The notes beneath the pieces were generated by a model, which worked only from the letters and a program-made list of their open reading frames with translations, was not told the DNA's origin and searched no databases. Made by a program: the position numbers and the translations under genes. Positions 18,408 through 64,000 of a stretch of DNA of 64,000 nt are shown here, piece by piece. Location of the stretch: assembly GCA_949825025.1 (NCBI GenBank), contig OX463778.1, positions 19,436,196 through 19,500,195 on the forward strand. Reading direction: 5' to 3'. Position 1 is the first letter of the stretch, and each line of letters begins with the position of its first letter. The stretch is from Siphlonurus alternatus (Eukaryota; Arthropoda; Insecta; Ephemeroptera; Siphlonuridae).

Positions 18408-19024
18408 ATAATTCAAAGAAAAGCTTCAAAATTCATATATGGAAAAAATTATTCTGCAGTTGCTTGCAATAAACTTATTTCTTTTAATTCTTTCTTGACC
18501 TATAATGATTTAAATTGTTTTTACAAGTGCCGTAATGGTATGAATGATCTTACCATAACGGATAGTGTTGTGAGTGGTCGTGAAATTCGTGGACAATCTG
18601 GTGTGGCAAGACTTATCCCTCCCAAAGTACGGACGTCACTTTACCAAAACGGCTTTGTATACCGTTGCACCACTCAGTGGATTAACTTACCTGCCGATGT
18701 TAAATTACAGCCACCTTCTTCTTTCTCTTTATGTTTAAAGAGACATCTATTGAACATTTAATAATATTTTGTTTGACTAGGCCTCATGGGTCAATTAATA
18801 TTGTGTATATTATGGATCAATGCCACTTTTGTGTCATGGTGCCACTTTGGTGCTACAGTATTGGTCCTCACCCTAAAAATTTTCAAAAATGAGCTAAATT
18901 TGTCATTTTTTATTTTTACTTTCTTTCTTTTGTTTGTTTTTTTATTATTCTTTTAATTTTGTTGTAAATTATAAATATGTATTTATGTATAAATTGACAT
19001 GGGTGAAATAAAATAAATAAAATA
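18408..19024 (+). mobile_element. 5'-truncated LINE (end of ORF2, 3'UTR and A-rich tail)
   Basis: An open frame from 18408 to the stop at 18761 encodes the C-terminal end of a non-LTR reverse transcriptase protein. It shows the family's NQRKASKFI motif (usual form: Q-R-R/K-A-T/S-K), then LNCFYKCRNG, IPPKVRTSLYQNGFVYRCTTQW and a final SSFSLCLKRHLL. A 3'UTR follows to an (AAATA)n tail at about 19,003-19,024. The endonuclease and polymerase core are missing, as expected for incomplete reverse transcription. It differs in sequence from the LINE at 58-63 kb, so it is another CR1/RTE-like family. Confidence 0.8.
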
Positions 19025-41420: not shown

Positions 41421-44400
41421 CTAGTCTGCTCGAGGGGGTTTCCTGCGCCTCACGCTGGGGCTGCCCTGAGTCGAAGAGGGGGCAGAGTCCGCCTGACTTC
41501 CCTCTCCTTCCTCCTCCGTCTCCACCTCCTCCTCAGAGCCACTGGCACTTGCGCCCACACGGTCATCCTTGATCACATCGTCGTCATCATCGTCCTCCTG
41601 CAATAACAAGACACGTCGTGGTATTCAGGTCTCATAACATACTTTCACTTGAAACATTTTAAACTAAATTCAACATGAATTGGCAGCATTTAGAGCAGTA
41701 TGAAGAGATTTAAGAGACTTGCTGTTTAAAATTCTAAGGCAGCCATTTTGATTTCCTCTATGATTTCGACAACATTAGTAAATGCTAAATGTTATGATCT
41801 TATGTGTTTTCTTCAGCATATAGCATATGATACAATAAAATTAAAATAAGACACTGTATGGCATTACAATATCAAGATAGTATCAGTAAGGAATTACTTT
41901 GAAGATTTTCATCCAGATCGGTACAGTGTTACCAATATAATAAAAGAAAACAAATGGGTATTTCCAAACAGTAATGAAAATCAAAGGTACTAAAGGATGC
42001 AGGTTTTCCGTTACCAACCAACTTATTAAGATGAAGGTATATTTTCATTTAAGCAGGAATGTTACTTGAAAATAATAGACAGGCTTATTTAAATGCCCAG
42101 CAAGATGTTTTTTTGTTATTAAGGATCTTACCACATCACTATCAGATTTGGCATCTCCGGACGATTTTGTCATCGGTAATGGCTTGGGTGGGTAGATGCA
42201 GTCGATAACACAAACTAAAAGCTGTAACATTCAATAAATTTATTAATTACTACCACTTAAATTAGAATACTACAGTCTGGCAAAATTAATACTCAATTGA
42301 TACCAAACAAAATTACTATATAGAAATGTACTTTGAAATAACATTAATATGTAAATAATTACATACTGTACTCGAATATCAAGTAAGAATTAAATAAAAA
42401 AGTACAAATTTGATGACTAAAATGGGTTTAGATTCCTTGTAGTTTGCAAGTTTAATTTTCATGTATAGGAGCACCTAAATATGACTGAATTGCACTAGCA
42501 TATTATTTACCCTCTCGGGTATTATTTATTTTTTATATGTAATAAAACATACAGAACATTGCGTGTCTTTTCTCATCATGTATGATGTAACGGCAGCAAA
42601 CGACAACTCACCAGTCCAAGCAGAGCACCCACAATGATTGTGATGATGGCGAAGATGAGGTAGCTGCCCCACATCGGCACTCCGTACTCCTCCATGAGGT
42701 GCGTGTGCACCGTCTGCAAATATAGCAAGCGTAAGGTGTTCTGTCTACACGTAATACGTCTGTCACAAACCCTCTTGAGTCTGGTAAGATTAAAATTTAC
42801 CAAGATGAGCTACATAATCAAATATGAACTAATCAAATCCCCCTTTTTTATTTAGTGATTAATTATGTAATTGATTTTGACAGTACTGTATGTATGCAGC
42901 AAAATTCAATTAAGAAATGTATGACAAACAAATGGTTATTTCCTATCATTTTGCAAAAATTTTGAAGATTCTATTCACAAAATTGGAGGCAATACAGCAG
43001 CAAACTGCAAGCAAGCAGGGAGAAAAATACAGCAACATTTGTCTATAGTAGTTTCTAAGCTACTAATATTGGACTGCTTAAGTTCTTACAATATGTTTCA
43101 ACAATCCCAAGATATTACACAAGATTCTTCAAGACCCTGGCAGGTTTACTCAGCAGGGCTACCAAAAGGAAGCTCTTATCCTCACCCTGAGCACCATGGA
43201 GAGCTTGTAGAAGTGGGAGACCACCGACATCTGGACCGACGCAGGGGACTTCCAGCCGGGGATTGGGTCTATCTGCTTCCACTTGGTCTCCTCGATGAAT
43301 GAGATGAACTCGTCCTTGTCCCGAGCACCACGGTACTGACGGAACTCCCCGTCATGGACACTGCAACCATCAAGAGTTCATCTAAACCTTGCCGGAACAG
43401 CAACTCGCTTTAGTGCCGGTTACCAGATTGAAAAATTGAGTCATCTTATGTTTCTAACAACTCTCAGCTTAATTTTTCTATTCATTCTTCAAGTGTCCAA
43501 TCATTGGGGTGATCATGATAAAAAGTTAAGTTAGAACAAAGAAATACTGTACAATACATGTACAGTATGTAGTAAAGATTATACAGTATGCAATACATTT
43601 ACTGCAATACAAAGTAAGAAAAATGTAATCTCTCTTTACTCAAAATTAAATTTGGAGTAAAAGTGAGTGTGTTTGAAAGCTCTATTCTTTGATTGAAGAA
43701 CACCTTTCCAACCTTTCCAAGAGCCAACTTCAAGCCAATACAAGATTTGCATACAATGATACATAAATCAGAGTGCGCACACAGAATTTTGGGAATTTTG
43801 TCCGCACTTAGATCAGCTGTGTTTACATCTAGCTAAACTGCTGTGAGAGGGGTATCGGTGGAGGGTTTATGTTAAGAGATAGGGAAAATCAGTACTGCCA
43901 TCTATGGGGGCGTATATACCGGGTACTGTCACCATATACATAATACAATGGTGCTTGGTGTTTTGTACATATGTATACTGTGAGGGGAAGAAACGGGTAC
44001 AAAAATCCCATATGGTGGGGCATCTATTTGTCTGTGGTGTGCATATATATACAAACTAATGATGTTCAGAATATTGTTTTGATGTCTTATACATCAGGAA
44101 GTTCAAAATTGCCAGTATTTTTTTTACAGAAACATAGGTAATTTTCGTAGTAATTACGGACAGAACAACGTACTGGTATATGGTTGGTAGAGCTGTGACC
44201 ATGAACCTTCCGCTCAGTCCAACATCTGTTGTGACATCCACCTGACCCACTCGAATGTCAAGGTCTTCACTCCATGTCGAAAAATCTTTCCAGATCGGTC
44301 CGAGTGACTTACAGGCAGGACACCAAGGAGCATAGCTGCAACAGAACAATGCCGGTACGAATTAGTCATGCATTTAATTCATGGACGAAGTGTCACAAAG

Positions 44401-45784: not shown

Positions 45785-48712
45785 TACATACAAGGAGGTG
45801 GCTACAGTCCCTGTAACAGGGACCGCAATTCTAGAACTAGGGCTCCCTGTATTGAAACTGCGCATGCGCGACTGAATGCATTTCCGGCACGTCATTTGTT
45901 GCATTGCAGGGACCGTAATTCTTGAAACTAGGATCCCTGTAGTCAATTTTAATAATAGGCCAAGTATAATAAAAGTTACAGGGAGCCAAGTGTTCGATCA
46001 ATGCGGTCCCTGTAGTGAACTTGTAAAACGTGTTGTCATGAAATAGATGCAGGGACTGTAATATCCCGAAGTTGCGGTCCCTGTAATCAAATTTTCTTAT
46101 TAAAGAAACGCGGCAATACATATACACACAGGGAGCGTAACATTCAAGTATTGCGGTCCCTGTAGTAAAAATTTCGTACTCTTATCTGGCCAAGTGTTAT
46201 ACAGGGACTCTAACAACCAAAAGTTACGGTCCCTGCAGCAATTATTTCTTTATGGACGCGGCAATAGAAACTACAGGGAGCGTAACATTCAAGTATTGCG
46301 GTCCCTGCAGTGAAAATTTCGTACTCTTATCTGGCCAAGTGTTATACAGGGACTCTAAAAACCAAAAGTTACGGTCCCTGCAGCAATTATTTCTTTATGG
46401 ACGCGGCAATAGAAACTACAGGGAGCGTAACATTCAAGTATTGCGGTCCCTGTGGTAAAAATTTCGTACTCTTATCTGGCCAAGTGTTATACAGGGACTC
46501 TAACAACCAAAAGTTACGGTCCCTGCAGCAATTATTTCTTTATGGACGCGGCAATAGAAAATACAGGGAGCGTAACATTCAAATATTGCGGTCCCTGTGG
46601 TAAAAATTTCGTACTTTTATCTGGCCAAGTGTTATACAGGGACTCTAACAACCAGAAGTTACGGTCCCTGCAGCAATTATTTCTTTATGGACGCGGCAAT
46701 AGAAACTACAGGGAGCGTAACATTCAAATATTGCGGTCCCTGTGGTAAAAATTTCGTACTTTTATCTGGCCAAGTGTTATACAGGGACTCTAACAACCAG
46801 AAGTTACGGTCCCTGCAGCAATTATTTCTTTATGGACGTGGCAATAGAAACTACAGGGAGCGTAACACTCAAGTATTGCGGTCCCTGTAGTAAAAATTTC
46901 GTACTCTTATCTGGCCAAGTGTTATACAGGGACTCTAACAACCAAAAGTTGCGGTCCCTGCAGCAATTATTTCTTTATGGACGCGGCAATAGAAACTACA
47001 GGGAGCGTAACACTCAAGTATTGCGGTCCCTGTAGTAAAAATTTCGTATTCTTATCTGGCCAAGTGTTATACAGGGACTCTAACAACCAAAAGTTGCGGT
47101 CCTTGCAGCAATTATTTCTTTATGGACGCGGCAATAGAAACTACAGGGAGCGTAAAATTCAATTAAGTATTGCTGTTCCTGCAGTGAAAATTTTGTATTT
47201 TTCTAGCAAAGTGTTATACAGGGACTCTAACAACCAAAAGTTACGGTCCCTGCAGCAATTATTTCTTTATGGACGCGGCAATAGAAACTACAGGGAGCGT
47301 AACATTCAAGTATTGCGGTCCCTGCAGTGAAAATTTTGTACTCTTATCTGGCCAAGTGTTATACAGGGACTCTAACAACCAAAAGTTGCGGTCCCTGCAG
47401 CAAATATTTCTTTATGAACGCGGCAAGAGAAACTACAGGGAGCGTAACATTCAAGTATTGCGGTCCCTGCAGTGAAAATTTTGTAATTTTCTAGCAAAGT
47501 GTTATACAGGGACTCTAACAACCAAAAGTTACGGTATAATAATAAAGGGTATAATTAGAGTCCCTGTATGGCACTTTGCTAGAAAAAGTATAAAATTTTC
47601 ACTGCAGGAACCGCAATACTTGAATGTTACGCTCCTTGTAGTTTCTATTGCCGCGTCCATAAAGAACTAATTGCTGCAGAGGGACCGCAAATTTTGGTTG
47701 TTAGAGTCCCTGTATAACACTTTGCTAGAAAAATACAAAATTTTCACTGCAGGAACCGCAATACTTAATTGAATTTTACGCTCCCTGTAGTTTCTATTGC
47801 CGCGTCCATAAAGAAATAATTTCTGCAGGGACCGCAACTTTTGGTTGTTAGAGTCCCTGTATAACACTTGGCCAGATAAGAGTACGAAATTTTTACTACA
47901 GGGACCGCAATACTTGAGTGTTACGCTCCCTGTAGTTTCTATTGCCGCGTCCATAAAGAAATAATTGCTGCAGGGACCGTAACTTCTGGTTGTTAGAGTC
48001 CCTGTATAACACTTGGCCAGAAAAGAGTACGAAATTTTTACTACAGGGACCGCAATACTTGAGTGTTACGCTCCCTGTAGTTTCTCTTGCCGCGTTCATA
48101 AAGAAAAATTTGCTGCAGGGACCGCAACTTTAGGTTGTTAGAGTCCCTGTATAGCACTTGGCCAGATAAAAGTACGAAATTTTTACCACAGGGACCGCAA
48201 TACTTGAATGTTACGCTCCCTGTAGTTTCTATTGCCGCGTCCATAAAGAAATAATTGCTGCAGGGACCGTAACTTTTGGTTGTTAGAGTCCCTGTATAAC
48301 ACTTGGCCAGATAAGAGTACGAAATTTTTACTACAGGGACCGCAATACTTGAATGTTACGCTCCCTGTGTGTATGTATTGCCGCGTTTCTTTAATAAGAA
48401 AATTTGATTACAGGGACCGCAACTTCGGGATATTACAGTCCCTGCATCTATTTCATGACAACACGTTTTACAAGTTCACTACAGGGACCGCATTGATCGA
48501 ACACTTGGCTCCCTGTAACTTTTATTATAATACTTGGCCTAATATTAAAATTGACTACAGGGATCCTAGTTTCAAAAATTACGGTCCCTGCAATGCAACA
48601 AATGACGTACCGGAAATGCATTCAGTCGCGCATGCGCAGTTTCAATACAGGGAGCCTAAGTTCTAGAATTGCGGTCCCTGTTACAGGGACTGTAGCCACC
48701 TCCTACATACAA
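45785..48712. mobile_element. Fold-back element FB2 with 9-bp target duplication and tandem-repeat arms
   Basis: The element is 45794-48703 (2,910 bp), flanked by an exact TACATACAA on both sides (45785-45793, 48704-48712). The termini are GGAGGTGGCTACAGTCCCTG and its exact inverse. Each arm starts with about 400 bp of unique mirrored sequence, then tandem units of about 145 bp: roughly nine in the left arm and six in the right, meeting near 47,540. Each unit holds two CAGGGA-N22-TCCCTG motifs separated by alternating 38-39-bp spacers. Drosophila FB elements also have tandem-repeat arms and 9-bp duplications; Mutator-like elements likewise make 9-bp duplications. No transposase is encoded, so it must be mobilised in trans. 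Confidence 0.93.
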
Positions 48713-51159: not shown

Positions 51160-56400
<5,241 letters not shown>

Positions 56401-57990
56401 CCTCAACAAACCCCCTCAACTCTGCTGGAAACTGTAAGTCAGGGCGACTAGACCCGTAGCTGTCTTGACATTCACAGACCCCTCTGGGAACTGTAAGCTA
56501 CGACAACCAGCCGCACTGCTGCTGTGACCCCTGCTGGAAACTGTAAGTCAGGGCAAATAGCCAAGCTGCTGCTGCCTAACGTCACTGACATGTTACGGTA
56601 TCGTTATAAATAAGTTTCCCTTCTTTTTAATAATCTATCTTTTCATTTATATTTTTTAAAATCTTTTAATTTTAAGAATATTATCATTATTTTTTTTCTT
56701 TTTACTTATTTACGGGATAAATATTTATTTATGAAAAATAATAATATAATTATAGGTTACATTGGGTTTTATTTTGTAGTGTATGAAACAAAAATATTGT
56801 CGTTATTTTTAATTAAATGCAATGACATTTGCATTTTTATTTCTTTCATTTTCATTTTGTGTACTAATGTAAACTATTTTATAACTTCTGATTATGATCC
56901 CTTGTTACCTTTTCTCCCATAGAACCCCCTTTTTTCAAGATAGTTACTAATCCTATATGTAAAGAGATGGAGAAATCAAGAATGAAATTAAAATATTATA
57001 TCTAAATATTTAAATTAGGCAATACCTACCGCTTGATCTCTTCATTTCTTGGCTGTGTACTTTTTTTTACCCTCTACTGTATTTCCTGGTTATAATAACC
57101 ATGCATAAAATACAGTGTAATCTTCATTTTGTTAACAAATGTCACTATCACTCTTAACTATAGGCTACTACCATTTGCACTCATTAATATAATTGGTCAT
57201 TCCCTCAATGTTGTTGCACATGTAAGTTTATGAGTATATCGATAGCTTTATATGCTAAAGCACTATCTCGTAATCTATGCCCGCGGTATTGGTAAATATG
57301 TAATTGTTGTACATTACTGTAGGGGAAGTTGCATGTTGCCCCTGTAGTTGACAAAAGAATTGTAATGTTTTCTAAGTTGGGTTACTTGTTTGCTTATGGG
57401 CTGTAATAATTACAGCCGCAATGTTATATGACTGCGTCTAAGCATATGAAGCCATTGATAAACCAAAATAAGTGTGCATGTCTCCTGTGTGTTCCATTTA
57501 ATAATAATAATAAAATAATATTATTATTTAGTGGCTTTGTACAGAAATTATTAAGATAACAAAAAATTAAATGTGTAGAAAAAATACTTCTATAATAATA
57601 AAATTATTTGTATGATATATATTATATTTTTCCCCATTTTATTAATAATGGAATATTGGTAACTTCAATCTATCATTGTTCTTCAATCAGAAAGTAGTGG
57701 AGAACTTCTTTTTTTATATATAAATAATATAAATATATTTTAGATGGATGGTTAGTAAAATATCTAGAGTATTTTTAGGGTGCTTATGCCACTAACTATA
57801 GGGACGTGCGTGTGTCAGGATTTATAATAAGTACCGAGGTATATTTTGTTCCCACTGTGTGTACTTGGACTGCAGTTTTGTCACACTTGTAGTGTAGAGA
57901 CTCTTCTTGAATATGCCAGCCTCGATCGTCATGTACTGTACATTCTCTGTATCAATTTTAATGAAACAATAAAAATTTAATAAAAAATAT
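56401..57990 (+). other. Poly(A) polymerase 3'UTR with internal repeats and polyadenylation signals
   Basis: Near the stop is a threefold imperfect repeat around CTG(C)TGG(A)AACTGTAAG (about 56,422, 56,482 and 56,532). The remainder is AT-rich. AATAAA motifs at 57968-57973 and 57979-57984 are the probable end signals, just upstream of the LINE. The UTR end is inferred from these signals only. Confidence 0.5.
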
Positions 57991-58244
57991 ATTTAAAATA
58001 GACCTTGTGATTTCATAATTTGCCTCTAGATATTATTTTATAGGATATTTTTTTTTTAATTATAATTTATATGAATAAATATATGAATAGAAGTATATAT
58101 ATTTATCAAAATATATATGCACAATATTTACCTCAATTTTTATTTTCAGTTACATAATGAGATTAAAAAAAAAAAATCAGTTTAGTTGATATTATTTTAG
58201 ATAGAAACAATGAAAATAGAACTAATAATGCTAGAAATTATGAA

Positions 58245-59738
58245 ATGACGTCATATAAATCGACTGTACCACTGACTCAGACTTTACAAGATCGCCGTTT
58301 CAACATGCAAAATTCTTCAGTGGTAGACGAGATACGTAGAGATCGAGTTCCTGAGCATGACGACGGGTGGCGCATGAAGCCGGCCAGTCATGGTAAAAGA
58401 AGTAAACAAACCTTGACCTTCAACAAACCACCAGTGTCTACGAGAAATCGTTTTGAGATTTTCAAGGAGCAAACATTTAGGGATGAATTTCCACGAATTA
58501 ACACTTCACAAAGAATACAACTTGCATCCAATATTAAGATAATTAGAGGAAACCTTTTTTCTGCTCCTTTTGATTGTGCCCTAGTTCACTGTGTTGCAGC
58601 GGACTTTTTATGTGGGCGTGGCATTGCCACACAATTTAAAAAATTATTTGGCAACTTAGAGAATATGATAAATCAGCTACGTCGACCAGGCCAAGTCGCG
58701 GTGGACACAAGGAGCAGTGATGAATGGAAATATATATTCCATCTTGTCACAAAAGAAATGTCTACACAAAAGCCAGAGTTGAAGGACATAATTTCGAGCC
58801 TCTGTGAGCTTCGGCAATGCTGTCACATTCTTAAAATTAAGAAGATTGCATTGCCAAAAATTGCATGCGGAAGAGATCACATGAAATGGGAGTGTATTTT
58901 GCAGGAGATAAACTCCATCTTTGGCGACACTGGAATAGACGTCACTATTTACACTGCCACGAGAAGTGACGTAAAATCATTCTCCCGTGCTGCGCAAGCT
59001 ACTCGGCAGACAAACCCATCGTCAGGTCCACAACAAAATGGATCTCCAAGCAGTGTATCTCAAGGGCTCACATCTCCTCCTCGCTCTGGGAGGACCACGT
59101 CGGTAACCCCTAAGCGGGCTCTCTTGGTCTGCTCTCCCGACGCTGAGATGCACGAGGAGGCCAAGAAAAACAGCGGGCGGGATGCGATAGTCCTCACTAC
59201 CAGTACGATGGAGCGCGAGGTAGAGAGGAGCAGGCAGGCTGCCATGGACATCCCCTCATTGTCGTCGACGACCAGTTTGGTGTCTCTCACGACCTCGGGG
59301 TCGCCGGATGGTGAAGTAGTAGTGAAGTCGGACACCCCGGCGTCTGGTGAGCACTCTACATCCCCCAACGCTCCCCCACATAACCAACTTCATGGTGTGA
59401 ATCTAGATTCCGCCCCTAGTGCTCCCACGCTCTCCCAGTTCACCCAAGATAATAGTAGTGTCGTGTCAGCCTCACCCAGCTTATTTCCCGCAGTGCAAGC
59501 TAGTGAACTTGAAAGGTATGAAAAAGTAGTAAAAGCAGGGGATTTAAATGAATCTGTGTCAGATAGTTTTAATAAATTTTGTGAGGAAACCTTAATGGAA
59601 GATAACGTATACGAGCAGAATGAACCTCAAACCAATTTAAAATGTGATTCAAATGTTATAATTAGTCCAAGACAACTGAGACCGAGAAATTTGTCACAAA
59701 ATTTTCAAACAACAAAGGTGCAGTTCAAAAAATCTTGA
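58245..59738 (+). CDS. LINE ORF1 with an OARD1/TARG1-like macrodomain
   Basis: 497 residues. Residues 1-90 are a polar, basic lead. About 96-238 form a macrodomain that follows human OARD1/TARG1 block by block: IRGNLFSAPFDCALVHCVA, GRGIATQFKKLFG, GQVAV, YIFHLVTKE, LPKIACGRDHMKWECI and IDVTIYTA. OARD1 binds ADP-ribose and removes it from glutamate/aspartate; its catalytic Lys and Asp both have counterparts here (K170, D211), so activity is plausible. Residues 250-400 are a Ser/Pro/Thr-rich linker and the tail is acidic, then basic. I see no CCHC knuckle, RRM, PHD finger or esterase, the modules usual in LINE ORF1 proteins. Nucleic-acid binding may reside in the basic parts. The stop TGA overlaps ORF2. 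The domain call is firm; its role in transposition is inference. Confidence 0.9.
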   Translation: MTSYKSTVPLTQTLQDRRFNMQNSSVVDEIRRDRVPEHDDGWRMKPASHGKRSKQTLTFNKPPVSTRNRFEIFKEQTFRDEFPRINTSQRIQLASNIKIIRGNLFSAPFDCALVHCVAADFLCGRGIATQFKKLFGNLENMINQLRRPGQVAVDTRSSDEWKYIFHLVTKEMSTQKPELKDIISSLCELRQCCHILKIKKIALPKIACGRDHMKWECILQEINSIFGDTGIDVTIYTATRSDVKSFSRAAQATRQTNPSSGPQQNGSPSSVSQGLTSPPRSGRTTSVTPKRALLVCSPDAEMHEEAKKNSGRDAIVLTTSTMEREVERSRQAAMDIPSLSSTTSLVSLTTSGSPDGEVVVKSDTPASGEHSTSPNAPPHNQLHGVNLDSAPSAPTLSQFTQDNSSVVSASPSLFPAVQASELERYEKVVKAGDLNESVSDSFNKFCEETLMEDNVYEQNEPQTNLKCDSNVIISPRQLRPRNLSQNFQTTKVQFKKS

Positions 59739-62725
59739 ATAATAATAATAATTCATACATTATTTTACAATTAAACATTCCAGGTCTTAAGTCAAAATTA
59801 AGTTTATTTGAGTCTCTCCTGGAATTAGAAAATATAGATATTGCTATTATATGTGAGCATGGTCTTAAAGAGGAAGAGATAAATACTATTAAATTTACCA
59901 ATTATAAATTAACAGCTTCCTTTTGTAGAACTCAACATGCAAAAGGGGGCGTGGCAATATTTTCTAAAAATTTATTAAATATTGTGAAAGTTCATGTGAC
60001 ATCTATAGAATTAAATTTTGAATGCTGCCTTGCTAAATTTAAAGTAAATCAGTCGCAAAATATTTTTCTTGCGTCAATTTACAGGTCTCCAACTAATAAA
60101 AAGAATATGAATCATGTAGACGATAAAGGTATAAATAAATTTTTAGAAAATTTTGAAAATATGTGCATAAAAATTATAAATTTATGCAAACCAAATGATA
60201 AAATTTTATTAGCTGGTGATATAAATATTAATATTTTAAAGGTAAATAAAAATGTTACTTCTTACACAGATTTATTGCAATCATTTGGTCTGCATATTTT
60301 AAATCAACAACCAACTAGAGTGGCCTGTAATAAATCCAATAATAAAACTGCTACTCTAATCGATCATACAATAGTAAAAAATTTTGATCTAAAGACATTA
60401 TGTGTCAGTAAAGACACAATTTTGTCAGATCATAAGTATACAATTGTAAAGTTTGAACTAGACAAAAAGAACAATACACTATTTAATAATATTTTAACTT
60501 TCTCATCAAGACAGTTTAGTAAAGAGAATTTTGAATATTTATTTAGGATGTTAATAAGAGAAAACTGGGACTCACTTTTAATACCTGGAGTGGATTTAGA
60601 AAGAAAATGGGAACTGTTTTTTGAAATATTTATTTTTTATTTTAATGAAGCATTCCCAAAAATTAAAAGGAAAATTAAGAACAGTATAAAAAAACCCAGC
60701 TGGATAACAAAAAATCCGCAGCTAATATCTGAAGGACATGAATTGAAAGAACTTTTTATTCAGGCTAAATATATAAATTCTGAGTTGCTGCCGGAATATA
60801 AAAATTTACTAAAAGTTCATAAACAGAAAATTTGTGTTGCTAAACTTGATGATAATAGCGCTAAAATTAAAAATGCGGACAATAAAATTAAAGCCAGTTG
60901 GGAAATAATTAAAAGTGGTTGTAACATGTCATCATCAAAAAATTCAAAGTGTATATCAGACATAAAATTTAATGGGAATATAATATCGTCCCCAATAGAA
61001 ATAAGCAATATATACAATAATTTTTTTGTTAAAACAATAGAAAATTTAATTAACAGTAATATTGATAGTATTAACAAAAAAGAAAATTACGGATTAAATG
61101 AAATTGTTGACCAAAAAGAAGTAGTAGCTAATTTTCAATTTAAAAAAATTCATTATTTAAAACTAATTGAACATATAAACGCACTCCCCAACAAAAACGC
61201 TGCAGGTCCGGACGAAGTGCCGTATACAGTAGTTAAGTATTGTAAGAATTTGCTTGCGGTACCGCTAACATCTCTTATAAACGATTCAATCGCAGAATGT
61301 GTCTTTCCTCGTATTTTGAAACTGTCTTGTGTCCTCCCGTTTTTAAAAGAGGGGGATAAACAAGTAATTGATAATTATAGGGGCATATCGAAACCATCAG
61401 TTTTTGCAAAATTGTTTGAGAGTATACTGGATGAGCAATTGACTGAGTATAGAATAGAAAATAATCTTATATCTAAAAATGAACATGGTTTCGTTAAAAA
61501 CAGGTCCACGACAACGGCAGCTTTTGATCTGTTAAACACTATTTATTCAGCAATCGATAAAAAAAAGTTTTGTGTGGTAATTTTTTTTGATCTGTCAAAA
61601 GCGTTCGATACACTAAATAAAGAAATTGTAACTGGTCAACTTAAAAATATTGGTTGTGACACTAAAAGCGTAAAATTAATAGATTCTTATCTGTCTTCCC
61701 GTCAACAGTACGTAGAAATAAATAAAACGTCAGAGGGTCAAAAGCATAGTGTTAAATCAGACACCCTAACGCTGTCAGTAGGGGTTCCCCAGGGTGGAAA
61801 AATTTCCCCGACTTTGTTTGGAATTGGGACGAATGAATTGCCGAAAAGCATCCCCGATGCTACAATAATAAAATATGCAGATGACACTACAGCCATTATT
61901 ACTGGTGATTCGGAGGATGATGTAATACAGAAAGCAAATAAAACATTAATTGATATGAAAAATTGGTGTAACCACAACGAATTAATATTAAATGATAAGA
62001 AGACAGTGTTTATGCAATTTCACACAGCTAGAAATATTCAATGTCATAGTTATCTACTTAAAATAAAAAATAAAGCCATTAAAAGAGTAGTAAAAACAAA
62101 ATTTTTAGGTTTTACTATACACGAAAATTTGGATTGGAAATTCCACATGGAAGATGTAATAAAAAAAATAAACTCAGGCAATTTTGTTCTATACTCAATA
62201 AGGGACCATGTATCATTAGAAGCATTATTTTCGATTTATTATGCGTACGTTTACTCGCACCTATCATATGGCTTAATTTTTTATGGATCAAATGAGCAAT
62301 CTATTTCAAGGTTATTTATAGCTCAAAAACGAGCACTGAGAACAATGTTAAGGTTTAAAAAGAGAGACTCATGTGTTACTCATTTTAAAAATAATAATAT
62401 GCTCACATTACCATGTATGTATGTATTAAGCTGTGCATTATTTAAAAGAAAACATTTCGAATTGTATGAACATCAAAACCATGTATACCAAACTAGAAAT
62501 AAGGAGAAAACTGTTATTGTAAGTCATAAATCTGCATTATTAGAAAAAAGTCCACTCTACCAATCGGCAAAAATTTATGATTTTTTGCCAGCATGTATAA
62601 GAAATATTGAGAGTGATATTCTGTTTAAAACGAAGCTTAAAGATGTACTTATTAAGAAAGAATTCTATTCAGTTAAAATGTTTTTTGCAAATAAACTCTC
62701 AGAACAGTGTCTTCAAGATGGTTAA
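59735..62725 (+). CDS. LINE ORF2: endonuclease and reverse transcriptase
   Basis: The open frame runs from 59,666 to the stop at 62,725; the 59735 start quoted is a TTG codon. Residue numbers count from it (996 residues). An exonuclease/endonuclease/phosphatase domain spans about 1-240, with QLNIPGLKSK, E41 in ICEHGL, SIYRSP, GDININ (D162) and SDH (D232, H233). The reverse transcriptase has NAAGPDEVP, NYRGIS, FDLSKAFD (D619), GVPQGG, YADD (Y714-D717) and KFLGF. The C-terminal part (HLSYGLIFYGS, AQKRALRTM) is typical of CR1/Jockey-group proteins; no RNase H is seen. All catalytic residues are present. There is no in-frame ATG until about residue 120, inside the endonuclease, so expression must use a -1 frameshift from ORF1, a non-AUG start, or a lost AUG. 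Confidence 0.93.
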   Translation: MNNNNNSYIILQLNIPGLKSKLSLFESLLELENIDIAIICEHGLKEEEINTIKFTNYKLTASFCRTQHAKGGVAIFSKNLLNIVKVHVTSIELNFECCLAKFKVNQSQNIFLASIYRSPTNKKNMNHVDDKGINKFLENFENMCIKIINLCKPNDKILLAGDININILKVNKNVTSYTDLLQSFGLHILNQQPTRVACNKSNNKTATLIDHTIVKNFDLKTLCVSKDTILSDHKYTIVKFELDKKNNTLFNNILTFSSRQFSKENFEYLFRMLIRENWDSLLIPGVDLERKWELFFEIFIFYFNEAFPKIKRKIKNSIKKPSWITKNPQLISEGHELKELFIQAKYINSELLPEYKNLLKVHKQKICVAKLDDNSAKIKNADNKIKASWEIIKSGCNMSSSKNSKCISDIKFNGNIISSPIEISNIYNNFFVKTIENLINSNIDSINKKENYGLNEIVDQKEVVANFQFKKIHYLKLIEHINALPNKNAAGPDEVPYTVVKYCKNLLAVPLTSLINDSIAECVFPRILKLSCVLPFLKEGDKQVIDNYRGISKPSVFAKLFESILDEQLTEYRIENNLISKNEHGFVKNRSTTTAAFDLLNTIYSAIDKKKFCVVIFFDLSKAFDTLNKEIVTGQLKNIGCDTKSVKLIDSYLSSRQQYVEINKTSEGQKHSVKSDTLTLSVGVPQGGKISPTLFGIGTNELPKSIPDATIIKYADDTTAIITGDSEDDVIQKANKTLIDMKNWCNHNELILNDKKTVFMQFHTARNIQCHSYLLKIKNKAIKRVVKTKFLGFTIHENLDWKFHMEDVIKKINSGNFVLYSIRDHVSLEALFSIYYAYVYSHLSYGLIFYGSNEQSISRLFIAQKRALRTMLRFKKRDSCVTHFKNNNMLTLPCMYVLSCALFKRKHFELYEHQNHVYQTRNKEKTVIVSHKSALLEKSPLYQSAKIYDFLPACIRNIESDILFKTKLKDVLIKKEFYSVKMFFANKLSEQCLQDG

Positions 62726-62858
62726 AAAATGTGCAAGTATTTTATAGTGATATAAGACATTTCTTATGTTGATAATGAATTTTATTGTGTATTTTAAGGT
62801 TCATATGTTTATTTGTGACGTGATCAATGTTGTATTGTACAACCAGTATCGAAATAAA

Positions 62859-62891
<33 letters not shown>

Positions 62892-63063: not shown

Positions 63064-63454
63064 TTTAAGGGTAAGATAACACGAACAATCGATTGTTGTA
63101 GTCCCATTTGATTATCATGTAAACCTTAGCAACCTCATAATAATTCTGATTTTTTTTTTAGAGACAGTTCTTAGCACCAAAAAAATGGAAAAAATTTCAA
63201 AACAATCGGACGATCCAATTTTTTTAACGAATTTTTTAAATTTTCAGTATATAGGGCTTTCCCATGGAGACCTAAACTAAGAAATTCATTTAAAAAAAAA
63301 TTGGATCGTCTGATTGTTTTGAAATTTTTTCCATCTTTTTGGTGCTAAGAACTGTCTCTAAAAAAAAATCAGAGTTATTATGAGGTTGCTAAGGTTTACA
63401 TGATAATCAAATGGGACTACAACAATCGATTGTTCGTGTTATCTTACCCTTAAA
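63064..63454. mobile_element. 391-bp palindromic MITE
   Basis: The left end tttaagggtaagataacacg is mirrored by cgtgttatcttacccttaaa. The arms of about 175 bp are nearly identical, through ccatttgattatcatgtaaa and cggacgatccaattttt, and the centre of about 40 bp is near 63,260. Non-coding. It lies 170 bp beyond the LINE tail. Confidence 0.88.
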
Positions 63455-63586
63455 ATTGTTTTATTTTAAAGAGAGTTTTTATCATTCCAAGTTGTCGTCT
63501 GCCATGTACGTGATAAATGATAATTAATTTTGGCATTGATTATAAAAAAAATAATATATACATTGTGCATGCATATTATAGATAAT

Positions 63587-63716
63587 AGGACTGTTCGTAA
63601 ATACACAATCAGAAAGAATATATCGATTATTTGTGATGAACCTTATTTTCCATGTACATAAGGTTCATCACAAATAATCATCGATTCCTTCTGATTGTGT
63701 ATTTACGAACAGACCT
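63587..63716. repeat. 130-bp near-perfect palindrome
   Basis: The left arm (aggactgttcgtaaatacac.. to ..gatgaaccttat) pairs with the right arm (ataaggttcatc.. to ..gtgtatttacgaacagacct) around a 10-bp loop. It could form a long hairpin, so it is either a small MITE or a hairpin RNA source. Its sequence is unrelated to the palindrome just upstream. Confidence 0.8.
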
Positions 63717-64000
63717 AATTACAGGTTAATTAAATCTGTTATATATTAATTTTACTATAAATAAATCTACTAATGAGCTCTCTCTATTATTTATGAAAAT
63801 GTACTATATAAATAAATAAATATATTTAATTAAGCATAATAATTACTGATATAGTGTAAATTTTAAAATTAATACTCAACATAAAATAAGGATTCGAATA
63901 TATCGTGTATTTTAATATTATATATATAATACGATTAATTAAAGTACATATATTATAATATCCTTGACGCCATTTTTACCCTTTCGGGTGTGATATTATT
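63717..64000. other. AT-rich sequence to the window end
   Basis: Nothing coding or repetitive is recognised. Confidence 0.5.

Follow-up and report, generated by a model that had tools for sequence, protein, structure and literature searches.

Can a long interspersed nuclear element (LINE) carry its own protein for handling ADP-ribose? The question is raised by a 64,000-nucleotide stretch of the genome of the mayfly Siphlonurus alternatus (contig OX463778.1, positions 19,436,196 to 19,500,195; hereafter, the window), in which an open reading frame (ORF1) with a macrodomain of the TARG1/OARD1 class is followed at once by an uninterrupted LINE ORF2. Nicks in DNA, through which retrotransposons insert, are marked by ADP-ribosylation, as are the ends of nucleic acids. 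If a LINE encoded an eraser or a reader of this mark, element biology would be tied directly to PARP signaling, and there would be a natural tool for testing whether ADP-ribosylation favors insertion or restricts it. One more enzyme would also join the cargoes captured by LINE ORF1s.

ORF1 carries a TARG1-class macrodomain upstream of a LINE ORF2

ORF1 occupies positions 58245 to 59738 on the plus strand (as do all features of the element below) and encodes 497 amino acids from an ATG start, according to the open-frame list and its translation. The open frame extends upstream to 58167 without a further ATG. The stop codon of ORF1 overlaps the frame of ORF2, which places ORF1 directly upstream of ORF2, and both frames are far longer than those in simulated sequence of equal composition. 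Immediately 5' of ORF1, between 58126 and 58250, lie a run of A and, near 58150, a stretch that by eye resembles a splice acceptor. An exon entering the ORF1 frame from this stretch is unlikely, since an in-frame stop follows just behind it, at 58164.

Residues 93 to 237 of ORF1 (58521 to 58955) form a macrodomain of the TARG1 class that retains the catalytic pair. Five human OARD1 (C6orf130) sequences in the PDB matched ORF1 with E values of 3.5e-27 to 7.4e-27, the best stretch being residues 93 to 237; the identity to human OARD1 is 35%. Profile searches returned Pfam Macro (PF01661; E value 3.5e-6; score 27.4 bits, cut-off 22), phrog_335, which is labeled as a phosphatase (E value 1.5e-21), and NCBIfam DarG (E value 8.9e-15; its 54.8 bits are below the model's full-protein cut-off of 250). 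As a control for chance, we compared human OARD1 with 1000 shuffles of ORF1; the best of these scored 7.5 bits, versus 94.7 bits for ORF1 itself. An AlphaFold2 model of the macrodomain and the fold searches run with it agreed with the class (structural match to human TARG1, E value 3.6e-15). The prediction for the whole of ORF1 from the single sequence had a mean predicted local distance difference test score of 36.1 and is uninformative for ORF1 outside the macrodomain. We also obtained a match of residues 333 to 396 to a flagellin-family chain (E value 0.0018), which we took as low complexity in the Ser/Thr/Pro-rich part.

ORF2 (59735 to 62725) is an uninterrupted frame of 996 amino acids whose listed start, a TTG, overlaps the ORF1 stop. 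Residues 12 to 236 (59768 to 60442) match APE-type endonucleases (PF14529, E value 8.3e-7, above the cut-off; PF03372, E value 0.0029, below it), so that the endonuclease match starts 12 codons past the ORF1-ORF2 junction. The reverse transcriptase (RT) spans residues 545 to 795 (61367 to 62119; PF00078 [RVT_1], E value 3.3e-32), with YADD at residue 714, and also matches the R2 retrotransposon protein chain 9nl2 (E value 1.4e-9). At its 3' end (62853 to 62889; AATAAA, then an ATT microsatellite of 10.3 units), the element terminates in AATAAAATT and the microsatellite. Both ORFs are open in this APE-type LINE. We take its endonuclease and RT motifs to be those expected of such ORF2s, and on the same motifs its clade presumably belongs to the Jockey/CR1/L2 superfamily.

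These results agree with a preliminary description of the window made from its letters alone and support its interpretation in part. That description had given ORF1 the same coordinates, had placed it before an ORF2 (here found to abut it and to have endonuclease and RT matches), and had read in it an OARD1-type macrodomain, which the Pfam and PDB matches and the shuffle control confirm. It had named a failed profile search as a refutation, and the profile search recovered the macrodomain.

Catalytic residues and the ADP-ribose pocket

We compared ORF1 with other macrodomains of the class. A scan with a two-row macrodomain alignment yielded 59 loci in IMG/VR contigs (L001 to L059), of which 35 were aligned, and 9 loci in GTDB. 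L001, the one locus read gene by gene, has a recombinase-like ORF next to its macrodomain; by our reading it resembles a phage contig. The residue counts below refer to 38 loci hand-picked from the 68, with 30 near-duplicate, weaker, or shorter matches omitted. The IMG/VR loci had been picked by patterns requiring the HC..D block (with S or A allowed at the place of OARD1 S35) or the GIA block; counts inside these two blocks are therefore biased by the search, and K84, G121, L124, and D125 lie outside both.

The Lys and Asp that the preliminary description had marked as catalytic hold their places. K170 (codon at 58752 to 58754) aligns with catalytic K84 of OARD1 and is Lys in 38/38 other rows, and D211 (58875 to 58877) aligns with catalytic D125 and is Asp in 36/38. 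The residue numbering of OARD1 was assumed, and it agreed with K84 and D125. Pocket residues G126, P204, G209, and W215 are also kept as in the relatives. Three others are not. At A118 (58596 to 58598), where OARD1 has S35, Ser was found in 36 of the 38 other rows and Ala in none. The loop A207-C208-G209-R210 (58863 to 58874) reads GCGL in OARD1; position 207 is Gly in 37/38 other rows, and position 210 is Leu in 33/38 and Arg in 0/38.

Human TARG1, of the ALC1-like class, has the domain length, the Lys/Asp pair, and, as predicted, the fold in common with the ORF1 macrodomain. It differs in being a single-domain protein rather than part of a LINE ORF1 and in its pocket, where ORF1 has A118, A207, R210, and N103. 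A catalytic role of the Lys/Asp pair in TARG1 is described in the accessible text of PMC9411070, whereas that of PMC7050489 gives the pair as Lys84/Glu125. A member of the same class, SCO6735, is reported to be active without the pair (excerpt of PMC5087735), and the pair alone therefore neither proves nor limits activity.

Origin and possible role of the macrodomain

Base composition divides ORF1 into parts. When GC content between 58167 and 62722 was analyzed by binary segmentation, it broke only at 58982 and 59506; the latter break, inside ORF1, is the strongest and the former the second. GC content is 0.39 before 58982, 0.57 from 58982 to 59505, and 0.29 from 59506. The middle segment (58982 to 59505) is a Ser/Thr/Pro-rich, GC-rich (57%) linker bounded by the two breaks, and the last (59506 to 59735) is an AT-rich tail of ~77 codons that matches ORF2 in base composition. 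GC content at third codon positions (GC3) is 0.40 in the macrodomain, 0.57 in the linker, and 0.23 in both the ORF1 tail and ORF2. The final 77 codons of ORF1 therefore look LINE-like; the upstream part looks foreign or kept at a different composition. The pattern is as though the macrodomain and linker had been attached to an AT-rich tail and ORF2. Among three host exons in the window, GC3 varies from 0.13 to 0.64, too widely for composition to name the source of the macrodomain.

On balance, we favor the view that ORF1 was rebuilt around a captured TARG1-class macrodomain in an APE-type LINE, probably of the Jockey/CR1/L2 group. Recombination or template switching would have brought the macrodomain in ahead of an older ORF1 tail, the putative donor being an invertebrate virus or an OARD1-like gene of the host. 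In this view, the ORF1 protein would travel with the element RNA, bringing the macrodomain to the ribonucleoprotein (RNP) or the nicked target. There it would bind ADP-ribose, most likely removing it from acidic residues or phosphorylated nucleic acid ends. Removal in the RNP or at the nick would aid the completion of target-primed reverse transcription or spare the element RNA from tagging. More tentatively, and with less confidence than in the capture, we propose that a replicating LINE family has swapped its usual RNA-binding ORF1 for a TARG1-class ADP-ribosylhydrolase, so that the element itself would remove ADP-ribosylation from its RNA or in the course of target-primed insertion.

Several observations weigh against the capture and the role proposed for the macrodomain. 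No second copy of the element was found within the 64-kb window, and an ORF2 match (E values up to 0.01) was seen in 0/68 macrodomain loci, searched over at most ~3 kb on each side. ORF2 has no early ATG; its first in-frame ATG is codon 125 (60107), past the first endonuclease motifs. For ORF2 to be translated, initiation at a non-AUG codon, reinitiation, or frameshifting would be required; otherwise this LINE copy may be dead and inactive. We found neither the 5' end of the element nor a target-site duplication, the longest exact match of the 31-nucleotide 3' flank to 56301 to 58260 being 8 nucleotides. A single join at this locus would account for the composition breaks at 58982 and 59506 just as well as an old capture would. 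Since A118, A207, and R210 depart from near-invariant pocket residues of the family, the activity of the macrodomain may have been lost or changed. Finally, PARP1 and PARP2 favor human L1 insertion (excerpt of PMC8535693).

Some of these points suit a chimera made at this locus only, which we think possible but doubtful. A 5'-truncated LINE (ORF1 tail plus ORF2) might by chance have inserted in frame downstream of a macrodomain gene; alternatively, a single template switch might have joined a macrodomain mRNA to LINE cDNA. The position of the strongest composition break within ORF1, the step in GC3 from macrodomain and linker to tail and ORF2, and the single copy in the window are as expected from such an event, and chimeric retrogenes have been put down to LINE template jumps (excerpt of PMC2104539). 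It requires, however, that the join be in frame and that both frames be open. The macrodomain is also distant from human OARD1 (35% identity and a long branch), unlike a fresh copy of a conserved gene, in a comparison made without the host's own OARD1, and GC3 differs too much among the host exons for composition to name a source. An ordinary host single-exon gene or pseudogene, with a meaningless adjacency to ORF2, is highly improbable. The poly(A) polymerase gene upstream and the splice-acceptor-like stretch near 58150 are in its favor, but the ORF1 stop overlaps the ORF2 frame, the endonuclease match begins only 12 codons from the junction, and the ORF1 tail has the composition of ORF2.

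The capture itself leaves two donors to be weighed. An invertebrate virus, as proposed for helicase ORF1s, seems less than probable as the source in place of a host gene. Of the first 10 matches among predicted viral structures, five (ranks 2, 4, 7, 8, and 10; best E value 8.9e-15) come from RNA viruses of invertebrates, namely one from Kadipiro virus and four from flavi-, negev-, and virga-like viruses associated with thrips, yet human TARG1 stands equally high in structure (E value 3.6e-15). A tree of hand-picked rows (ORF1, the 38 aligned macrodomain loci, and human OARD1) does not place ORF1; besides ORF1 it holds one animal sequence and no named eukaryotic virus. The ORF1 row sits on a long branch with weak placement, 17/37 inner branches are open, and bootstrap support is not settled, so we drew no origin from it. 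By tree path, the row nearest to ORF1 is OARD1 (3.06), and the highest identity is to a viral-contig row, L058 (39% over 135 columns). As for activity, the macrodomain might instead be a reader that docks the ORF1 protein and the RNP onto poly(ADP-ribosyl)ated nicks or RNA granules, which we rate as rather unlikely. The unusual pocket residues A118, A207, and R210 point in this direction, as do the inclusion of both readers and erasers in the ALC1-like class (excerpt of PMC7050489) and the gain of human L1 insertion from PARP activity at the nick (PMC8535693, likewise in part). The retained catalytic Lys/Asp pair argues against a reader, which would have no need of it.

The preliminary description had suggested that a LINE may have taken up the domain to counter PARP-based restriction. 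We take the restriction factor ZAP to be PARP13. L1 is restricted by ZAP (excerpt of PMC4441479), and RNA ADP-ribosylation has been suggested as a possible mark of transposon-derived or viral RNA in a review whose accessible part also lists modified acidic residues and ADP-ribose at nucleic acid ends as TARG1 substrates (PMC7050489). Human L1 retrotransposition, however, is reported to fall by ~50% without PARP1 or PARP2 and by 80% without both (part of review PMC8535693). This dependence speaks against a simple account in which PARPs restrict LINEs. Given that human L1 gains from PARP1 and PARP2, counter-defense would fit no better than erasing the mark once it has served, or docking to it.

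Relation to known LINEs and genomic setting

Capture of enzymes into LINE ORF1s has already been published. LINEs of Nilaparvata lugens and other species carry a virus-like SF1 helicase in ORF1 of Jockey-type elements, with an adjoining or overlapping endonuclease-RT ORF2 as here (one ORF1 overlaps ORF2 by 2 nucleotides); according to the accessible part of that paper (PMC5563155), they have dozens of copies, whereas one copy is known here. The macrodomain would be a further cargo of this kind, for which we do not claim priority. Jockey-superfamily elements surveyed in PMC4120745 (448 elements, five ORF1 types) have the same two-ORF layout, with endonuclease and RT in ORF2. None of the ORF1 types named there (RRM/CCHC, coiled coil, PHD, and esterase) is among the Pfam matches of the present ORF1. 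No RRM, CCHC, PHD, or esterase domain was found at E values up to 1, in a Pfam search that divergent LINE RRMs can escape and that did not cover coiled coils. The word "macro" is absent from the survey's main text. No macrodomain in a LINE ORF1 is described among the literature matches listed, which comprised titles and abstract starts and had most subscription papers, bioRxiv, and Repbase outside their scope. RNA viruses also carry macrodomains on a parasitic element. Should further copies share the domain, such handling of ADP-ribose signaling by a retrotransposon would be unusual. In IMG/VR, from which records of the element's own genome may be left out, the ORF1 query gave 0 pattern matches, and the ORF2 query gave 9, with 0 relatives by tblastn.

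Elsewhere in the window, a frame of 117 amino acids (18408 to 18761) resembles by eye the C-terminal end of another LINE ORF2; it had no Pfam match above the cut-off and no match to the present ORF2. We read the window as animal DNA, with host exons for an aquaporin-type protein (in the frame from 23050), a thioredoxin-type protein (44059 to 44361), and, upstream of ORF1, poly(A) polymerase (in frames 51428 to 51814 and 52829 to 53125). A large tandem array with a 145-bp unit (46128 to 48386) has 9.7 copies followed by 5.7 copies with the reverse-complement unit and is likely inverted. Just 3' of the LINE lie two foldbacks (inverted repeats). The first, at 63064 to 63454, has arms of 95 and 75 nucleotides (99% and 97% complementarity), and the second, at 63586 to 63717, is shorter, with 34-nucleotide arms (94% complementarity).
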